Positions 8,382 through 20,135 of a DNA stretch of 22,128 nucleotides are shown here, piece after piece (positions within the stretch are counted from its first letter, which is position 1; each line of letters opens with the position of its first letter). The notes under the pieces were generated by a model, which searched no databases, was not told where the DNA came from, and saw only the letters and a list, made by a program, of their open reading frames with translations. The DNA is from a virus, in the IMG/VR virus record IMGVR_UViG_3300025127_007454, positions 1-22,128 of that record, one strand, 5' to 3'. Made by a program: the position numbers and the translations under genes.

Positions 8382-9023
8382 ATGTTGATGTCAAATCAAT
8401 TCAGTTGGAAAACAAAATTTAAATCTATTATAATTGTGGACGGAGAACTCTTTCCGAACGAATATGATTTAAATATTTTTATCTCAGCACACACGCCCGA
8501 CCTAAAGGAACAATCCGACTACTTCGAGAGATTGAAAAATTTATTTGAAAGAGTATTCACCAACACAATCACGACATGGCGTGACGAACCTTTGTATCCA
8601 GTTTTGAAAAAGCAAACCAATAACCGATTTGTTGAATTACCAAGACCTCCCTATGATCAAATAATGGCGGCTGTATGTTTTTGCAAGGCTAATGCAGTAT
8701 TAGATAGCAAAATAATAATTAACAATCTTCAGTTAAGTAGTTGGCAAGGAGATGGTATTACCTATTCGGTTGACAAAAACTCACCAGAACTGCTATTATT
8801 AGATCAAAAGGATTGGTTTAGTAAAAAATTTAGCAAATTCGATCCATGGTGGTTAAGGCCAGACACTGCAACATATGATGAGGAACATGCAAAAGGCATC
8901 TACACAGGACACTTCAGTTGGAACAAAACAAATATTCCTGTTGACAAGAAGCACGAAGACCATGCTAAAATATTTGAATTCAGTCCAAAGGTTTTAGATG
9001 GTGGAAAAAATAAAAACAAATAA
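8382..9023 (+). CDS. Hypothetical protein, 213 residues
   Basis: Two in-frame ATGs (8382, 8388) are possible, and the Shine-Dalgarno signal is weak for both. The protein has no signal peptide, transmembrane segment or recognised motif. Residues about 90-130 (YDQIMAAVCFCKANAV, IIINNLQLSSWQGDG) look like a compact alpha/beta core, and the C-terminus is Lys/Asp rich and probably flexible. Its 3' end overlaps the start of the polymerase-III-like gene by 26 nt, which suggests coupled expression. Codon use looks coding throughout. I do not recognise the family; a virion-assembly or DNA-associated role cannot be separated from the sequence alone. Confidence 0.62.
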   Translation: MLMSNQFSWKTKFKSIIIVDGELFPNEYDLNIFISAHTPDLKEQSDYFERLKNLFERVFTNTITTWRDEPLYPVLKKQTNNRFVELPRPPYDQIMAAVCFCKANAVLDSKIIINNLQLSSWQGDGITYSVDKNSPELLLLDQKDWFSKKFSKFDPWWLRPDTATYDEEHAKGIYTGHFSWNKTNIPVDKKHEDHAKIFEFSPKVLDGGKNKNK

Positions 9024-9519
9024 ACACGGCGATTGCATTTACTCAGAGCAAGATGCAATTAATTTACTCTACACAGATCCAGATTTTGACATAACAAAAC
9101 TTTTCTTCGATTCCACTGACAAATATAACAACACAGTGCAAGAGCTTGGTTTGGATTTGCCAAAAATACACAAGGTGCCGGAACGTTCTGATGTGGTTGA
9201 GTTTGACAAGGCCAATAGCGATCGATGGCACATGCCTGAACATTACAGCAAGTTGAATGTCCTGCAATGGTTATTAGAAAAATGCCAAAACGACGAAGAA
9301 CGATTCCGGGTCCAAACAGAATATAGTTTGTTTGAGGAGAAAAAATTTATCAAGGTGTTGCAATTTTTGATCTATTTTGTTGACACACTAAGAGCAAACA
9401 ATGTGGTATGGGGAGTAGGAAGAGGCAGTTCGGTAGCCAGTTTCTGCTTATTTTTGATCGGTGTACATAAAATAAATCCCATGCTGTACAATTTGGATCA
9501 CCGTGAATTTTTAAGATGA
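8998..9519 (+). CDS. Stand-alone fragment resembling DNA polymerase III alpha (GRGS region)
   Basis: The last 70 or so residues of this 173-residue protein follow the bacterial DnaE pattern around the GPGRGS loop: RVQTEYSLFEE, then FLIYFVDTLRANNVVWGVG, then GRGSSVASFCLFLIG, then INPMLYNLDHREFLR (DnaE: yfLIV-dFi--ak-nGI-vGPGRGSaagSlvay-lgIt-IdPL-y-LlFERFL). Conserved GVGRGSS is at 139-145 and INP at 159-161. The protein ends exactly where DnaE would continue into the PDfDiDF catalytic aspartates, so it cannot polymerise on its own. The N-terminal 100 residues are unrecognised. DnaE is over 1100 residues, so this is either a remnant or a repurposed nucleotide- or DNA-binding domain. It overlaps the upstream gene by 26 nt. 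The resemblance is clear by eye; the function is unknown. Confidence 0.66.
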   Translation: MVEKIKTNKHGDCIYSEQDAINLLYTDPDFDITKLFFDSTDKYNNTVQELGLDLPKIHKVPERSDVVEFDKANSDRWHMPEHYSKLNVLQWLLEKCQNDEERFRVQTEYSLFEEKKFIKVLQFLIYFVDTLRANNVVWGVGRGSSVASFCLFLIGVHKINPMLYNLDHREFLR

Positions 9520-12016: not shown

Positions 12017-12120
12017 AAGCATTTATAAGGTGGGTCGGTTTGATTCCTTTGCTACACGCCCCTGTTTATTTCCTTGCAATGGTTGGAGTGTTTCTGTTAG
12101 TATTAACATTTGTATTATGA
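12001..12120 (+). CDS. 39-residue single-pass membrane peptide
   Basis: The product MAKKIKAFIRWVGLIPLLHA plus a hydrophobic run ending FLLVLTFVL has a basic N-terminus and one or two hydrophobic stretches (about residues 11-39). GAGGA just upstream may serve as ribosome site but sits very close (1 nt) to the ATG. Its TGA stop (12118-12120) overlaps the ATG of the clamp loader (ATGA), the classic sign of translational coupling. A small gene here could simply feed ribosomes into the clamp loader, or the peptide could act on the host membrane. The ORF is short, so I am moderately sure only. Confidence 0.5.
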   Translation: MAKKIKAFIRWVGLIPLLHAPVYFLAMVGVFLLVLTFVL

Positions 12121-13043
12121 AAGATCTTTGGGTAGAAAAATATAGACCAAAAACATTAAAAGAATATGTTGTCAGAGATGAGGCACAGCGACAGCAGATA
12201 CAGTCTTGGATTGATGACAAAGCTATTCCGCATTTGCTATTGAGTGGTGCTCCAGGAGTAGGTAAAACTACATTGGCGAAAGTACTATTCCAAGAACTGG
12301 ACGTGAGCAGTTATGACATACTAGAAATAAACGCTTCAAGAGAAAATTCAGTAGACACTGTTAGAGAGAAGATCAATTCATTTGTACAAATAATGCCTTT
12401 TGGGTCATACAAGTATGTGCTGTTGGATGAAGCAGACTATATGAGTCCAAACGGACAAGCGGCACTTCGTGGTGTAATGGAGATGTATCATACATCAGCA
12501 AGATTTATTTTGACTTGCAATTATCCCAACAGAGTCATTCCAGCACTACACAGCAGATGTCAAGGCTTTCATATGGAGACAATAGACAAAAACGAATTCA
12601 CGGCAAGAACAGCAGAAATATTGATTGCAGAACAGATAGAGCCAGACATAGAAGTGCTAGACACATATGTCAAAGCAAGTTATCCTGATTTAAGAAAATG
12701 TATCAACATGATACAACAGAATTGTAAAGACGGCAAACTGATGACACCAAAATCAGGTGATTCCGGACAGCAGGATTATAGATTACAAATGGTTGAACTG
12801 TTCAAAGCGGGGAAAATAAATGAAGCAAGGAAACTTGTGTGTGCCCAAGCTAGGCCAGAAGAGTGCGAAGAGATATATAGATGGCTATATGATAATTTAG
12901 ATATAATCTCCAAAGATGAGGACAAACAAGACAAAGCAGTGTTGATAATCAAACAAGGATTGGTTGATCATTCGTTTGTTGCTGATCCAGAAATAAACTT
13001 GGCCAGTGTGATGATCAAATTAGCAAGGTTATCAAATGGGTAA
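12117..13043 (+). CDS. Sliding-clamp loader ATPase subunit (T4 gp44 / RFC-like)
   Basis: The protein loads the phage sliding clamp on DNA for replication and late transcription. The ATG at 12117 overlaps the stop of the small upstream peptide (ATGA); the alternative ATG 12030 would add 29 residues unlike the family, which starts near WVEKYRPKTL. The 308-residue product has RFC box sequence LWVEKYRP (4-11), Walker A SGAPGVGKTT (43-52), Walker B YVLLDEAD (100-107), sensor-1-like FILTCN (130-135) and the arginine-finger motif HSRCQGF (145-151). The C-terminal collar domain ends VADPEINLASVMIKLA, similar to the gp44 end. T4 gp44 is 319 residues, so it is full length. In T4 the next gene is the small loader subunit 62; the next gene here does not obviously match it. 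Confidence 0.88.
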   Translation: MKDLWVEKYRPKTLKEYVVRDEAQRQQIQSWIDDKAIPHLLLSGAPGVGKTTLAKVLFQELDVSSYDILEINASRENSVDTVREKINSFVQIMPFGSYKYVLLDEADYMSPNGQAALRGVMEMYHTSARFILTCNYPNRVIPALHSRCQGFHMETIDKNEFTARTAEILIAEQIEPDIEVLDTYVKASYPDLRKCINMIQQNCKDGKLMTPKSGDSGQQDYRLQMVELFKAGKINEARKLVCAQARPEECEEIYRWLYDNLDIISKDEDKQDKAVLIIKQGLVDHSFVADPEINLASVMIKLARLSNG

Positions 13044-14132: not shown

Positions 14133-14862
14133 TGAAGGACTAAAGGCCGGTGATTTGGAAGGCGTGATCGATAAACGTTTTTCCATAGACCAATACAAAT
14201 CTAAAATGGGCGATGACAAAAACATCATGGTCCTTGCTTTTACGGCAGAAGGACTTGCGCCTGCAAAGGATCTAGAACGTTTTGCTGAGACCGGATATAA
14301 AGAAATTTTAGATGCAGATGCAACTCCTGGCACAATGGCAGATGGCAAACACAAAGTATTTGTTGAGTTTGCAAGACAGGACGGAGTCATAATGCACATA
14401 ATGAAATTTTTGGAAGACCTCAAAAAACTTACTAATATTGACGAGTTTGAGTACACTTATCACAAAGGTGAAAATCCAACTCTTGTATCTGCAGGTACCA
14501 TGCAGGAGATGGTTCCAACAACTCCTGACGCATACGAACAAAAGGTCAATGAAATGAAAATGGGTGAAGCAAAAAACTTTTTTGACAAATACGACATGTT
14601 AGAATGTGCAATGCAGGACAATATTTTAAGTGTCAAAAAAGCAGGCACACAACAAGAGTTACAATTTGAAATACACAAAGTTGGATCTACGAATGAAATC
14701 ATGAAAGAAGCTAAAGCATTTGCTTTGGACATAGATTCGGTTGCAGAATGCACACATCTCACAAAATACTTTGGTCCTTATAATATTACCAAAACCACTG
14801 AAAACAGATTCATTTTCAACAAAGGTGATGAGTCTGCACTATTAAGTAAGTACAAATGGTAA
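14122..14862 (+). CDS. Hypothetical virion-associated protein, 246 residues
   Basis: The start overlaps the previous gene by 11 nt, which suggests a two-gene unit. The N-terminal half looks alpha/beta (IMVLAFTAEGLAPAKDLER, KVFVEFARQDG), with a repeated DLxxF pattern, and the C-terminal half contains SVKKAGTQQELQFEIHKVG. I see neither a membrane segment nor a catalytic motif. Related proteins probably exist in marine T4-like phages as unannotated structural or assembly proteins; this is recollection, not a search. The M15 peptidase gene overlaps its stop codon by 7 nt, so the three genes are probably co-transcribed from the late element at 13639. Confidence 0.63.
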   Translation: MQINEGLKAGDLEGVIDKRFSIDQYKSKMGDDKNIMVLAFTAEGLAPAKDLERFAETGYKEILDADATPGTMADGKHKVFVEFARQDGVIMHIMKFLEDLKKLTNIDEFEYTYHKGENPTLVSAGTMQEMVPTTPDAYEQKVNEMKMGEAKNFFDKYDMLECAMQDNILSVKKAGTQQELQFEIHKVGSTNEIMKEAKAFALDIDSVAECTHLTKYFGPYNITKTTENRFIFNKGDESALLSKYKW

Positions 14863-15320
14863 GGTTATCAAAAAATTTCACGCTACAAGAATTTACTAAA
14901 AGTCAAACAGCAACAAGAAAAGGCATAGACAACACGCCTGGTGAAGAACATCTTGCCAAGGCAAAGAGTCTTTTTGAAAATGTTGTGCAGAAAGTAAGAG
15001 ACAATTTTGGAGTAACAGTGATCAACTCTGGATATAGAGGCCAAGCACTTAACGAAGCTGTAGGCGGTTCAGAAAAGTCGCAACACTGTAAAGGCGAGGC
15101 TGTGGATATAGAATGTCCAGGCACCCCTAATTATGATGTGGCAAAATGGATTGCAGATACCTTAGACTTCGATCAACTTATATTAGAATTTTATACACCA
15201 GGAATACCTGATTCAGGATGGGTACACGTTTCTTACAAGTCAGAAGGAAATCGTAAAAGTGTTTTGACTGCAATGAAGGAGAACGGCAAGACCGTCTATA
15301 AAACAGGATTAATACAATAA
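14856..15320 (+). CDS. M15-family peptidase, endolysin candidate
   Basis: This predicted zinc D-Ala-D-Ala carboxypeptidase or L-alanoyl-D-glutamate endopeptidase cleaves peptidoglycan stem peptides. The 154-residue product has the M15 metal motif SQHCKGEAVD (75-84; SxHxxGxAxD, zinc ligands H77 and D84), a possible catalytic Glu in LILEF (E111), and the third ligand in GWVHVS (H124). The N-terminal FTLQEFTKS pattern is typical of phage M15 lysins. There is no signal peptide, so it would depend on a holin. The ATG overlaps the upstream stop by 7 nt (ATGGTAA). The spanin pair lies about 1.4 kb downstream, separated by an oxygenase-like gene and an opposite-strand gene. Confidence 0.85.
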   Translation: MVRLSKNFTLQEFTKSQTATRKGIDNTPGEEHLAKAKSLFENVVQKVRDNFGVTVINSGYRGQALNEAVGGSEKSQHCKGEAVDIECPGTPNYDVAKWIADTLDFDQLILEFYTPGIPDSGWVHVSYKSEGNRKSVLTAMKENGKTVYKTGLIQ

Positions 15321-15321
15321 A

Positions 15322-15843
15322 ATGTATCGAAAATGTTTTTTAGATTACGATCACAATTTTTTTGTCGAGCAGGAATACAAACAAGAACCTACTAGTTGTA
15401 TCAAACATCAGATCAACGAGCTTGACGACATACACAAAAAGTATGGTGGCTTTCCGGAAACATACACTTTTGCCAATACGAAAATACATCAATTATGGTA
15501 TACTAAGGAACAAATTGATTTCGATGCTATAGGAAAGCAATTAGGTGTCGAGGTGGTTACAGTCAGTTCTATAAAGCAACCTCCTGGACAAGTGGTTCCA
15601 TTGCACAGAGACACTTTTTTCCAAATCAAAAAAAAATTTCCTGATGACAAGAGATTGAAAGTACGGGCAAACATATACCTCCAGGATTGGAAGATGGGAC
15701 AGTTTATACAGTATGACGACACGGTTGATGTGAAGTGGAAGGCAGGAGATGGACACATATGGGACAGCAATGTTCTCCACGTCAGTGCTAACGCAGGATT
15801 CAACGACAAGTACACTTTGCAGGTGAGTGGTTTTTTGTTATAA
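15322..15843 (+). CDS. 2OG-Fe(II) oxygenase-like (aspartyl hydroxylase-like) protein
   Basis: The 173-residue product has SSIKQPPGQVVPLHRDTFF (82-100), where H95 and D97 fit the HxD iron site, followed by KVRANIYLQDWKMGQFIQY. The distal ligand is H153 in VLHVSANAGF (151-160), before a final KYTLQVSGF strand. This double-stranded beta-helix order resembles aspartyl/asparaginyl beta-hydroxylases and the oxygenase-like proteins common in marine phages. The substrate is unknown: protein, nucleic acid and small molecules are all possible. It lies two nucleotides after the M15 stop and its own stop codon (15841-15843) touches the stop of the convergent aminotransferase-like gene. Confidence 0.68.
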   Translation: MYRKCFLDYDHNFFVEQEYKQEPTSCIKHQINELDDIHKKYGGFPETYTFANTKIHQLWYTKEQIDFDAIGKQLGVEVVTVSSIKQPPGQVVPLHRDTFFQIKKKFPDDKRLKVRANIYLQDWKMGQFIQYDDTVDVKWKAGDGHIWDSNVLHVSANAGFNDKYTLQVSGFLL

Positions 15844-16722
15844 TCAAATAGTTATTCTTTTATCCCATATCCTACTAAAACATAAACGATTTGTGTCTAT
15901 ACCTCTGTTGTATTCAGAATATTTTCCAGATGTATCTAAACCAAATATTACGCAGTCCGATGGAGTCAACTGTAAACTAGCACAGGAATCTTTTTGTAAA
16001 TCTTTATATTTTGCATATAGCCAATTATTACTAAATTTTTTTATCATTTGGTGACCTATATTGACACTGAATAAGTTTACATAATCATTTTGATTATAGG
16101 CAAATAAAGTATCATCAAAAAATTGCCTTCTCATCCTGATGCCTATCCTGTGGTGTTCTACAGGAAAAACTTTGCTTAATGACGTGGTAATTGTATGAAT
16201 ACATTTGAAACTAAGGTCGAGCTCTTCTATTTTTGATATACTGATGTACGCAAGATCTAACATCACAGGAATTTCAAGTTGTTCGCACTGCTTCAATATA
16301 TTATAAAAGTCGACAGGTATATTGCCTGTGCCTGAGAACGGACAACTCATTACAACCACATCACCTGACCTGAGTTTATCATCACCTATGTCAACACATG
16401 ATTTGAAATAATTACGTCCCATCAACCAATGATAAAAAAATTCTCCCTTCAGCAGACGTAGACGTTTATTGATGTGTTGATGATAGAATTGACCAAAAGT
16501 TTCTGTGGTGCCAGCACTGAAGTCAATGTTTTCAAAATTTTGTATTCCTTTAAAATTTTTACCACTGCATATCCATTCTTTGTAATCTTTCAAGAACTTT
16601 TTACTATCACCTATTTCATGGTTGATGTTTTTTAAATGTTCAACAGACTCGGGGTCGTGGATGCTCCACGCACCTCCATAAGGCTTATTTCTTAACGGTG
16701 GTAATACATGATTGATAGCCAT
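15844..16722 (-). CDS. Compact fold-type-I PLP aminotransferase-like enzyme
   Basis: This 292-residue minus-strand protein retains the main residues of class-I aminotransferases in the right order. GTTETF (71-76) fits the phosphate-binding loop. PVMLDLAYIS (152-161) has D156 and Y159 in the D-x-A-Y pattern that holds the PLP ring. SLSKVF (181-186) offers the Schiff-base lysine K184, and R192 in HHRIGIR lies eight residues on, the same spacing as K258 to R266 in aspartate aminotransferase. NRLCFSRIW (278-286) can supply the substrate-carboxylate arginine (R279). The usual NPTG is replaced by SGTG. At 292 residues it is about 100 shorter than typical members, mainly in the N-terminal arm. The substrate is unknown. 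It is the only long gene on this strand, so separately acquired. Confidence 0.7.
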   Translation of the reverse strand: MAINHVLPPLRNKPYGGAWSIHDPESVEHLKNINHEIGDSKKFLKDYKEWICSGKNFKGIQNFENIDFSAGTTETFGQFYHQHINKRLRLLKGEFFYHWLMGRNYFKSCVDIGDDKLRSGDVVVMSCPFSGTGNIPVDFYNILKQCEQLEIPVMLDLAYISISKIEELDLSFKCIHTITTSLSKVFPVEHHRIGIRMRRQFFDDTLFAYNQNDYVNLFSVNIGHQMIKKFSNNWLYAKYKDLQKDSCASLQLTPSDCVIFGLDTSGKYSEYNRGIDTNRLCFSRIWDKRITI

Positions 16723-16766
16723 TTGATTTACTTATAGGCGTATATTTGACCATAAATATTAGCCAT
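16723..16766. promoter_or_regulatory. Divergent promoter region
   Basis: This 44-nt gap separates the aminotransferase-like gene (minus) from the i-spanin gene (plus). On the minus strand TATAAG (16731-16736) lies 8 nt before the ATG, without a convincing -35. On the plus strand the late element CATAAATA (16751-16758) faces the spanin. The two genes are thus likely expressed at different times. Confidence 0.45.
16751..16758 (+). promoter_or_regulatory. T4-type late promoter element CATAAATA
   Basis: CATAAATA ends 8 nt before the spanin ATG at 16767, with no ribosome site in between. The in-frame TTG at 16746 would lie upstream of the promoter core, so the ATG is preferred. Confidence 0.62.
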
Positions 16767-17240
16767 ATGTTTTCAAGCATTAGAATGATATTTACAGTTT
16801 TAATAATCACCGGAATAGCCGGTGCAGGTATGTATGTAATGAAATTGAGGGCAGATAACGCCACACTGAAAGCAAATCAAATTAAATTAGAGACAGCGGT
16901 TGCAGAACAGAACAAGGTGTTGGAACAACAGAAAAAAGATTTTACGGCAATAATGGAAAGCAACAAAAAACTAAATGTGTTGATCAACACATTCAAAAAA
17001 GATCTACAGGATCTAGACAAACGTTTCACAAAGAAAAACAGAGACATTGGGAAGTTGGCTATTGAAAGAACAAAATCTATAGAACGCATTGTCAACAACG
17101 GTGGGAAAAACGCCGCAAGATGTATCGAGTTGGCATCAGGTGCAGAGCATACTGAAGCAGAACTAAAAGCAACTTTAAAATCACAAATCAACCCAGAGTG
17201 CCCAGCACTTGCAAATCCAAATTATGTACCACATCAATAA
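16767..17240 (+). CDS. i-spanin-like inner-membrane protein
   Basis: The product (157 residues) has one N-terminal transmembrane helix (about residues 7-25: MIFTVLIITGIAGAGMYVM) with a short basic start, then a long, highly charged coiled coil (about 28-105) and a C-terminal region with two cysteines. This is the Rz layout: anchored in the inner membrane with the coiled coil in the periplasm, where it joins an outer-membrane lipoprotein to fuse the membranes at lysis. The lipoprotein gene overlaps its end by 17 nt, the expected Rz/Rz1 arrangement. I prefer ATG 16767 because the late element at 16751-16758 lies just upstream. There is no sequence-level Rz motif beyond the architecture. Confidence 0.78.
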   Translation: MFSSIRMIFTVLIITGIAGAGMYVMKLRADNATLKANQIKLETAVAEQNKVLEQQKKDFTAIMESNKKLNVLINTFKKDLQDLDKRFTKKNRDIGKLAIERTKSIERIVNNGGKNAARCIELASGAEHTEAELKATLKSQINPECPALANPNYVPHQ

Positions 17241-17589
17241 AATATTTGCATTAGCGTTAATTGTATTACTAACAGGTTGTAGTATAGGTGGCGAGAAAAA
17301 GATCAAGATATTCTCAGTTGAGAAACCAAGGGAAAAATTAAACTACGAGATGCCAACTCCATTACAAATGGAGGAAATTTACTGGCATATTATCACAAGT
17401 GAAAATGCAGAGGAAGTATTCAAAAAACTAGAAGAAGCAGGAATAGATCCTGTGTTATTTGGAATCACAGACAAAGACTTCCAGGTGCTGGCTAGAAACT
17501 TTGCACAGATAAGGCAAAAACTACAGGAAACAAACAACCTGCTTGAAGAGTACAAAAAATACTACGAAGATTCTGGTAATAGTCAATAA
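17224..17589 (+). CDS. o-spanin-like lipoprotein
   Basis: ATG 17224 gives MYHINKIFALALIVLLTGC, a classic lipoprotein signal: basic start, hydrophobic core and the lipobox LLTGC with Cys19 as the lipidated residue. An in-frame TTG at 17209 would weaken the signal. The mature part of about 103 residues is helical and charged (EEVFKKLEEAGIDP, QIRQKLQETNNLLEEYKKYY). It overlaps the i-spanin gene by 17 nt. Position and architecture fit an o-spanin, which bridges to the i-spanin coiled coil. It is larger and less proline rich than lambda Rz1, so another outer-membrane lipoprotein role remains possible. Confidence 0.72.
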   Translation: MYHINKIFALALIVLLTGCSIGGEKKIKIFSVEKPREKLNYEMPTPLQMEEIYWHIITSENAEEVFKKLEEAGIDPVLFGITDKDFQVLARNFAQIRQKLQETNNLLEEYKKYYEDSGNSQ

Positions 17590-19634: not shown

Positions 19635-20135
19635 ATGAAACTATATGAACCATTCCAATTTCTGACGACAAAAGAATGTGATGACATAATATCATACGCA
19701 AGAAAAAATCAAATAAAAGATGCATCTAACCCTGCTAGAAAAAATAGAATAGTATGGTACAAAGAAAGTATGCAATGGAAAAAATGGATTGAAATGCTTA
19801 ATACCATCGAGCCAGTGATAGATTGGATACAGACGCCACAAATTTCATTTTATAAACCTGGAGAGCAATATAATTGGCATGATGATGGATGGCCAAGCTA
19901 TAGAACACACATAAGGCATTTCACATTAACTTGTGAACTACAATCGGCTCCTAACGCAGGATTCGAAATGAAAGACAGAATTATAACACCTTTAAAAAAA
20001 GGCCAAGCAGTAATATTTAGATCCACCGAAAAACACAGGGCAACATCACCGACCGAAGGCGAAAGAATAAGTTTTACCATTTGGGCAATGACACTAAACA
20101 AAAGCAAACAATCTATCCCAAATACCAAACGTTGA
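19635..20135 (+). CDS. 2OG-Fe(II) oxygenase, prolyl-4-hydroxylase type
   Basis: The 166-residue product has the iron/2-oxoglutarate signature: YNWHDDGW (79-86) with H82 and D84, then KHRATSPTEGERISFTIWA (133-151) with distal H134 and R144 for 2-oxoglutarate. The preceding SFYKPGEQYN matches the F-Y-x-x-G-x-x-Y/F stretch of P4H-like enzymes. It belongs to a different subfamily from the oxygenase at 15322. Marine T4-like phages commonly carry such genes; substrates are unknown, with protein or nucleic-acid hydroxylation suggested. No ribosome site is visible just before the ATG. Confidence 0.82.
   Translation: MKLYEPFQFLTTKECDDIISYARKNQIKDASNPARKNRIVWYKESMQWKKWIEMLNTIEPVIDWIQTPQISFYKPGEQYNWHDDGWPSYRTHIRHFTLTCELQSAPNAGFEMKDRIITPLKKGQAVIFRSTEKHRATSPTEGERISFTIWAMTLNKSKQSIPNTKR

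Follow-up and report, generated by a model that had tools for sequence, protein, structure and literature searches.

The closest described relatives of the protein considered here are the class I/II aminotransferases of the HisC / CobD / N-succinyl-DAP aminotransferase type (PF00155), which share its fold along nearly the entire chain (Z about 22) and whose Lys, Asp, Tyr, K+8 Arg and C-terminal Arg are also found in the phage protein. The phage family is more compact (277-312 aa, median 300, for the aligned members, versus about 310-415 aa in the PF00155 type), is 8-16% identical to these enzymes, and differs from them in the replacement of Asn by Ser, Ala or Gly in the NPTG-like motif.

At the level of gene sets, the comparison extends to (i) the streptidine branch of streptomycin biosynthesis, with the StsC aminotransferase, the StrB1 amidinotransferase and the StrG oxygenase, since the cassette of the relatives likewise combines an aminotransferase, a StrB1-like amidinotransferase and 2OG oxygenases, although the phage aminotransferase is of class I/II, unlike the DegT/StsC enzyme of that branch, and the window is without an amidinotransferase; (ii) the radical-SAM/amidinotransferase module of Campylobacter phages CP220 and CPt10, termed interchangeable by its describers, in which a distantly related amidinotransferase (31%) lies beside sugar-transferase-like genes, whereas the module encodes radical SAM enzymes and has no compact class I aminotransferase annotated (PMC2853527); and (iii) Pelagibacter phage Mosig EXVC030M, whose protein Mosig_00079 (262 aa) is encoded two genes downstream of an Asp/Arg-hydroxylase-type oxygenase gene, and for which the genome paper discusses no function (PMC7892664).

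The window (the whole stretch of DNA analyzed, 22,128 bases, which is all that the record contains) is a fragment of a marine T4-like phage. It encodes structural repeat proteins, UvdE (PF03851, 2e-27), a gp44-like clamp loader, and DnaJ- and deformylase-like ORFs. The features of the region under study are as follows:

14856..15320, plus strand: endolysin (peptidase M15), left border of the insertion site, common to L010-L013 and L016
15322..15843, plus strand: small predicted 2OG-Fe(II) oxygenase, 173 aa, HxD...H triad H95, D97, H153
15844..16722, minus strand: predicted compact fold-type-I PLP enzyme (class I/II aminotransferase-like), 292 aa, putative Schiff-base Lys K184, with D156, Y159, R192 and R279
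16729..16736, minus strand: TATAAGTA, differing at one position from the T4-type late promoter and lying 6 bases ahead of the aminotransferase ATG
16746..17240, plus strand: Rz-like spanin, right border of the insertion site
17209..17589, plus strand: lipoprotein-like ORF following the spanin gene, part of the right border

The aminotransferase reading frame is intact (ATG start, 292 codons, TGA stop). An earlier note on this DNA had read from it a D-x-A-Y motif, an S-x-S-K motif, an Arg at K+8 and a C-terminal Arg within 292 residues, and all were located as claimed (D156-L-A-Y159, S181-L-S183-K184, R192 and R279). In an alignment of 50 sequences (42-96% identity), G71, T72, E74, D156, Y159, S181, S183, K184, R192 and R279 are invariant, and ten residues kept in 50 of 50 sequences at this level of identity place the motif pattern well beyond chance. 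Loss of K184 in close homologues was looked for, and the residue was kept in every one of the 50. The Mosig protein (27% identical) also keeps K184, D156, R192 and R279, with His where Tyr159 stands. The dN/dS value (0.13, window versus L002) indicates purifying selection.

The same note had described these residues as being in class-I order, which holds for the Asp, Tyr, Lys and Arg residues and fails for the Asn of the NPTG-type motif. The Asn of the CobD NNPTG motif aligns with position 130, which is Ser in the window protein, and Ser, Ala or Gly (41, 6 and 3 sequences, respectively) in the alignment. The canonical Asn that is hydrogen-bonded to PLP O3′ (N194 of AAT) is replaced in all 50 relatives; this residue is typical of class I/II, but lies outside the Pfam cut-off criteria. 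Conservation of the remaining residues and of the predicted fold shows a site in which PLP would be held as an aldimine on K184, and by homology K184, D156 and R279 are predicted to share one pocket. In enzymes of this class the Asp (D156 here) faces the pyridine nitrogen of PLP, and the K+8 Arg (R192 here) binds the phosphate.

An AlphaFold2 model built on 50 family members (mean pLDDT 94.3, pTM 0.91) gave 911 Foldseek matches in the PDB at E<=1e-3, and the 50 listed were all fold-type-I PLP enzymes, the matches including CobD, HisC, kynurenine aminotransferase, C-S lyases and GntC. In VIA-align comparisons (Z 20.8-22.2), 273-287 residues were aligned to chains of 363-419 residues; 283 of the 292 residues were aligned to class I/II fold-type-I PLP enzymes at Z about 22. 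Such near-full-length alignment indicates a trimmed whole enzyme, not a lone domain. Single-protein searches of the window sequence against Pfam, PHROGs and PDB sequences produced no usable match, and PF01041 (DegT/DnrJ/EryC1/StrS sugar aminotransferases) gave none at E<=1. One relative (L006) passes PF00155 with 37.1 bits versus a cut-off of 19.7, whereas the window protein has no Pfam match; in the PDB sequence search, a deeper aminotransferase profile was less sensitive than a shallow one. The modelled fold and the catalytic residues together show the predicted protein to be a trimmed class I/II-like fold-type-I PLP enzyme, and the identity and compactness proposed from the reading frame are borne out by the model, Foldseek, VIA and residue conservation. 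These unusually small class I/II PLP enzymes offer material for learning which parts of the fold are dispensable.

At least 154 homologues were found in IMG/VR viral contigs, compared with one in isolate phages ('putative aminotransferase' Mosig_00079, 26.8% identity, E 3e-9), in agreement with the proposed viral origin of the gene and its rarity among isolates. When 84,980 bacterial and archaeal genomes were scanned with a family profile, a method that needs conserved peptide patterns and can be escaped by divergent cellular relatives, one match was found, on a 10-kb contig of a Verrucomicrobia MAG. This contig also carries genes for an amidinotransferase, SGNH-like proteins, a UDP-sugar dehydrogenase, a PIG-L deacetylase and glycosyltransferase-like proteins, and with its phage-like cassette is probably viral. 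A single-sequence scan of genome contigs with the window protein gave no match. The compact family is apparently virus-restricted, and that tag in one isolate phage is almost its only annotation. The family, the replaced Asn and the cassette described below were not found in the literature searched, most subscription journals being outside its scope; the chemistry is of known kinds. A second, divergent compact aminotransferase (L055:1601-2479; 115.6 bits) was observed on the contig of a main copy.

The neighborhoods of the gene in relatives had been proposed as a place to look for modification enzymes, and the survey revealed an oxygenase, a StrB1-like amidinotransferase and glycosyltransferases around it. 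The small 2OG-Fe(II) oxygenase (homologue of 15322-15843) lies directly upstream of the aminotransferase in 58 of 83 loci, and the amidinotransferase directly downstream in 46. Within 5 kb the two were found in 68 and 62 loci, respectively, and a larger oxygenase with similarity to the TIGR04324/TIGR04323 'sporadic carbohydrate cluster' models, mostly scoring under their cut-offs, in 54. Near-identical phages inflate these counts; after clustering at 70% aminotransferase identity, the oxygenase is within 5 kb in 14 of 23 clusters and the amidinotransferase in 10 of 23. Starting from the amidinotransferase, the compact aminotransferase was present within 4 kb in 77 of 80 loci (25/25 of those with full flanks), and two of the three exceptions end at a contig edge. 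Further cassette neighbors include glycosyltransferases and, in L083, a UDP-sugar dehydrogenase and a PIG-L deacetylase. The physical linkage of the aminotransferase to the oxygenase and the StrB1-like amidinotransferase is conserved in relatives.

The amidinotransferase profile matched StrB1 (inosamine-phosphate amidinotransferase of streptomycin biosynthesis, 1bwd) over its full length at 1e-113, and L-Arg:Gly amidinotransferase at 1e-62 to 1e-64; StrB1 is the closest solved structure, and the GGxHC motif aligned with it and the HxD pair are conserved. Enzymes of this family use arginine. Neither this gene nor the TIGR04324 gene was found in the 22-kb window fragment or in the 53-kb relative L011. 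In three relatives (L013, L003 and L083) the amidinotransferase is located elsewhere on the contig of the aminotransferase; in L013 (172 kb), it accompanies an oxygenase homologue about 100 kb away. The gene tree placed the window aminotransferase in a well-supported clade of 13 rows, to which most members adjacent to an amidinotransferase do not belong. One that does is L069, with the complete oxygenase-aminotransferase-amidinotransferase order, on a long branch of unsure placement. Literature searches for the 'sporadic carbohydrate cluster', StrG in cyanophage and phage inosamine-phosphate amidinotransferase, with most subscription journals outside their scope, found nothing.

In the window, the stop codons of the aminotransferase and oxygenase genes abut (convergent, 0 bp between), and the convergent neighbor, noted previously as oxygenase-like, proved to have an HxD...H triad on a predicted 2OG double-stranded beta-helix (pLDDT 96). 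H95, D97 and H153 are invariant and the model reached VIA Z values of up to 13.3, to prolyl 4-hydroxylases; the PhyH Pfam score is 16.6 bits, under the cut-off of 22.

The suggestion that the two proteins act on one substrate was upheld in part: adjacency is conserved in two gene orientations, but when the analysis started from window-type oxygenases, only 5 of 80 loci had a compact aminotransferase of this family within 4 kb. Linkage to the oxygenase alone would overstate the partnership, because of this reverse result. An approx. 200-aa DegT-type aminotransferase (PF01041) was present in 17 of the 80 loci, neither type occurred within 4 kb in 58, and none had both. On these counts the oxygenase seems able to partner either of two compact aminotransferases that are unrelated to each other. 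The mini-DegT/DnrJ/EryC1 proteins, about half the normal size, were observed in L126:3392-3991, L111, L128, L130, L160, L084:6281-6868 and others; in Synechococcus phage S-SCSM2R a mini-DegT, a related oxygenase and an amidinotransferase lie in one glycosyltransferase-rich cluster.

We propose that PLP bound to K184 would serve an aminotransferase in which R279, judging by its position, would hold the amino donor (glutamate, for example) by its alpha-carboxylate. The acceptor of the amino group would be a carbonyl on a small molecule, for which a keto-sugar, a keto-cyclitol or a similar compound is the likeliest candidate, and the partner 2OG-Fe(II) oxygenase, given the conserved linkage, may hydroxylate or oxidize the unit that is aminated. 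In the fuller marine-phage cassettes, gene order and homology suggest that the StrB1-like amidinotransferase would turn the new amine into a guanidine, using arginine, a logic that resembles guanidine formation in streptidine biosynthesis; the glycosyltransferases would then probably place the decorated unit on a surface or virion glycan.

This proposal as a whole, in which the predicted aminotransferase, the oxygenase and, in fuller cassettes, the amidinotransferase decorate a sugar/cyclitol-type unit, we consider reasonably probable on the basis of sequence and models. The conserved operon in related phages suggests that they assemble an unusual decoration rich in nitrogen, whose carrier is probably a sugar. 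A more specific reading is put forward tentatively: marine phages may possess a virus-specific mini-pathway (oxygenase, compact aminotransferase, StrB1-like amidinotransferase, carbohydrate-cluster oxygenase and glycosyltransferases) making a guanidinylated streptidine-like sugar or cyclitol that decorates virions or the host surface, with the aminotransferase slot filled by either the compact class I/II enzyme or the unrelated approx. 200-aa DegT enzyme. The cassette points to an unrecognized small-molecule or glycan pathway in ocean phages and offers a testable order of reactions.

The best-surviving alternative, which we nevertheless regard as unlikely, is that the fold-type-I PLP enzyme performs other amino-acid chemistry and shares an arginine-derived pathway with the oxygenase and the amidinotransferase; examples of such chemistry are O2-dependent oxidation/desaturation (MppP, RohP and Plu4), hydroxy-arginine cyclodehydration (GntC) and decarboxylation (CobD). 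PLP decarboxylases, lyases and the fold-type-I arginine oxidases MppP, RohP and Plu4 tie with aminotransferases in VIA Z against the compact model, so the fold alone cannot prove transamination; GntC and CobD occur among the Foldseek matches and as weak NCBIfam matches of family members, and the use of arginine by the cassette amidinotransferase also fits. On the other hand, ordinary aminotransferases match equally strongly, the best profile matches are transaminases (NF006967 and PF00155), and no arginine-oxidase sequence signature was found.

Hypermodification of DNA bases, in which the aminotransferase (together with the amidinotransferase) would decorate a modified base against restriction, appears improbable. 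PLP enzymes do occur in known phage base pathways. FolE, QueD-like and radical SAM (QueE-like) genes lie near the aminotransferase in L003, and dADG-modified DNA has been reported for the group that includes the Campylobacter phages carrying a related amidinotransferase (PMC6884629). However, FolE-type neighbors were found in only 7 of 83 loci, no base-modification enzyme was recognized in the window, and typical cassettes combine glycosyltransferase and sporadic-carbohydrate genes. These carbohydrate neighbors make surface or virion chemistry more likely, and a surface or virion glycan is the favored target; of the two targets named in the earlier note, base or surface modification, the second fits the neighbors better and the first less well.

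There is a very small chance that the gene serves the amino-acid metabolism of the host as an auxiliary metabolic transaminase, for instance a valine-pyruvate transaminase: NF006967 is the best NCBIfam match of the window protein (E 3.4e-6), but only 111 residues are covered, and the gene travels with an oxygenase and an amidinotransferase, not with genes of amino-acid biosynthesis. Identity as AvtA (NF006967) was rejected at 26 bits versus a cut-off of 402. A degenerate PLP-fold protein serving for non-catalytic binding, to which the shortened sequence and the replaced PLP-O3′ Asn might point, is scarcely credible given the invariance of the remaining catalytic residues and the dN/dS of 0.13.

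The aminotransferase-oxygenase pair occupies an insertion hotspot among the lysis genes. The aminotransferase of L010-L013 and L016 is found at the same endolysin/spanin site and in each case runs against the direction of the core genes. The layout of the window recurs unchanged in L002, and in L012 the two convergent genes are separated by 4 bases. The lipoprotein-like ORF is probably the outer-membrane spanin. The window cassette comprises the aminotransferase and oxygenase only, and the rest may lie outside the 22-kb fragment, as in L013, or be absent.

The TATAAGTA sequence was not retained as a late promoter of the aminotransferase gene: near-matches occur at chance level window-wide, and it may be a chance occurrence. 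The T4-type late promoter core ATAAATA is present eight times in the window (1220, 2880, 5078, 7511, 13640, 16752, 17586 and 18679), a raw count not above chance; all copies are on the plus strand and most precede an ORF start by no more than about 60 bases, and this strand split and placement suggest that they are late promoters.

Several other genes were observed. The window contains a stand-alone 173-aa piece of DNA polymerase III alpha (8998-9519; PF07733 2.4e-10, phrog_11127 2e-44), also a separate gene in L002, L011 and L013; a clamp-loader ATPase (12117-13043) whose nearest relatives are in Pseudomonas jumbo phages of the PA5oct type (54%) and not in cyanophages; and a second 2OG-Fe(II) oxygenase (19635-20135; PF13640 1e-9, phrog_61) not adjoining the aminotransferase. 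A Bmp/PnrA-type substrate-binding protein is encoded in the marine phage contigs L003 (9678-10751; PF02608 7e-52), L019 and L020, near FolE and a putative QueD/QueE/transglycosylase set.

The 172-kb record represented by L013 and L104 encodes a full-length bc1/b6f-type cytochrome b (L013:13231-14490; PF00033 3e-69, PF00032 3e-40) between ParB-like and GroES-like ORFs, in phage synteny, and this is a phage-borne respiratory-complex gene. The same record carries a TctA subunit of a tripartite tricarboxylate transporter (L104:4593-7068; PF01970 5e-96); the ORF after it, of 348 aa, has a signal-like N-terminus and no Pfam match, and looks like the TctA binding protein.
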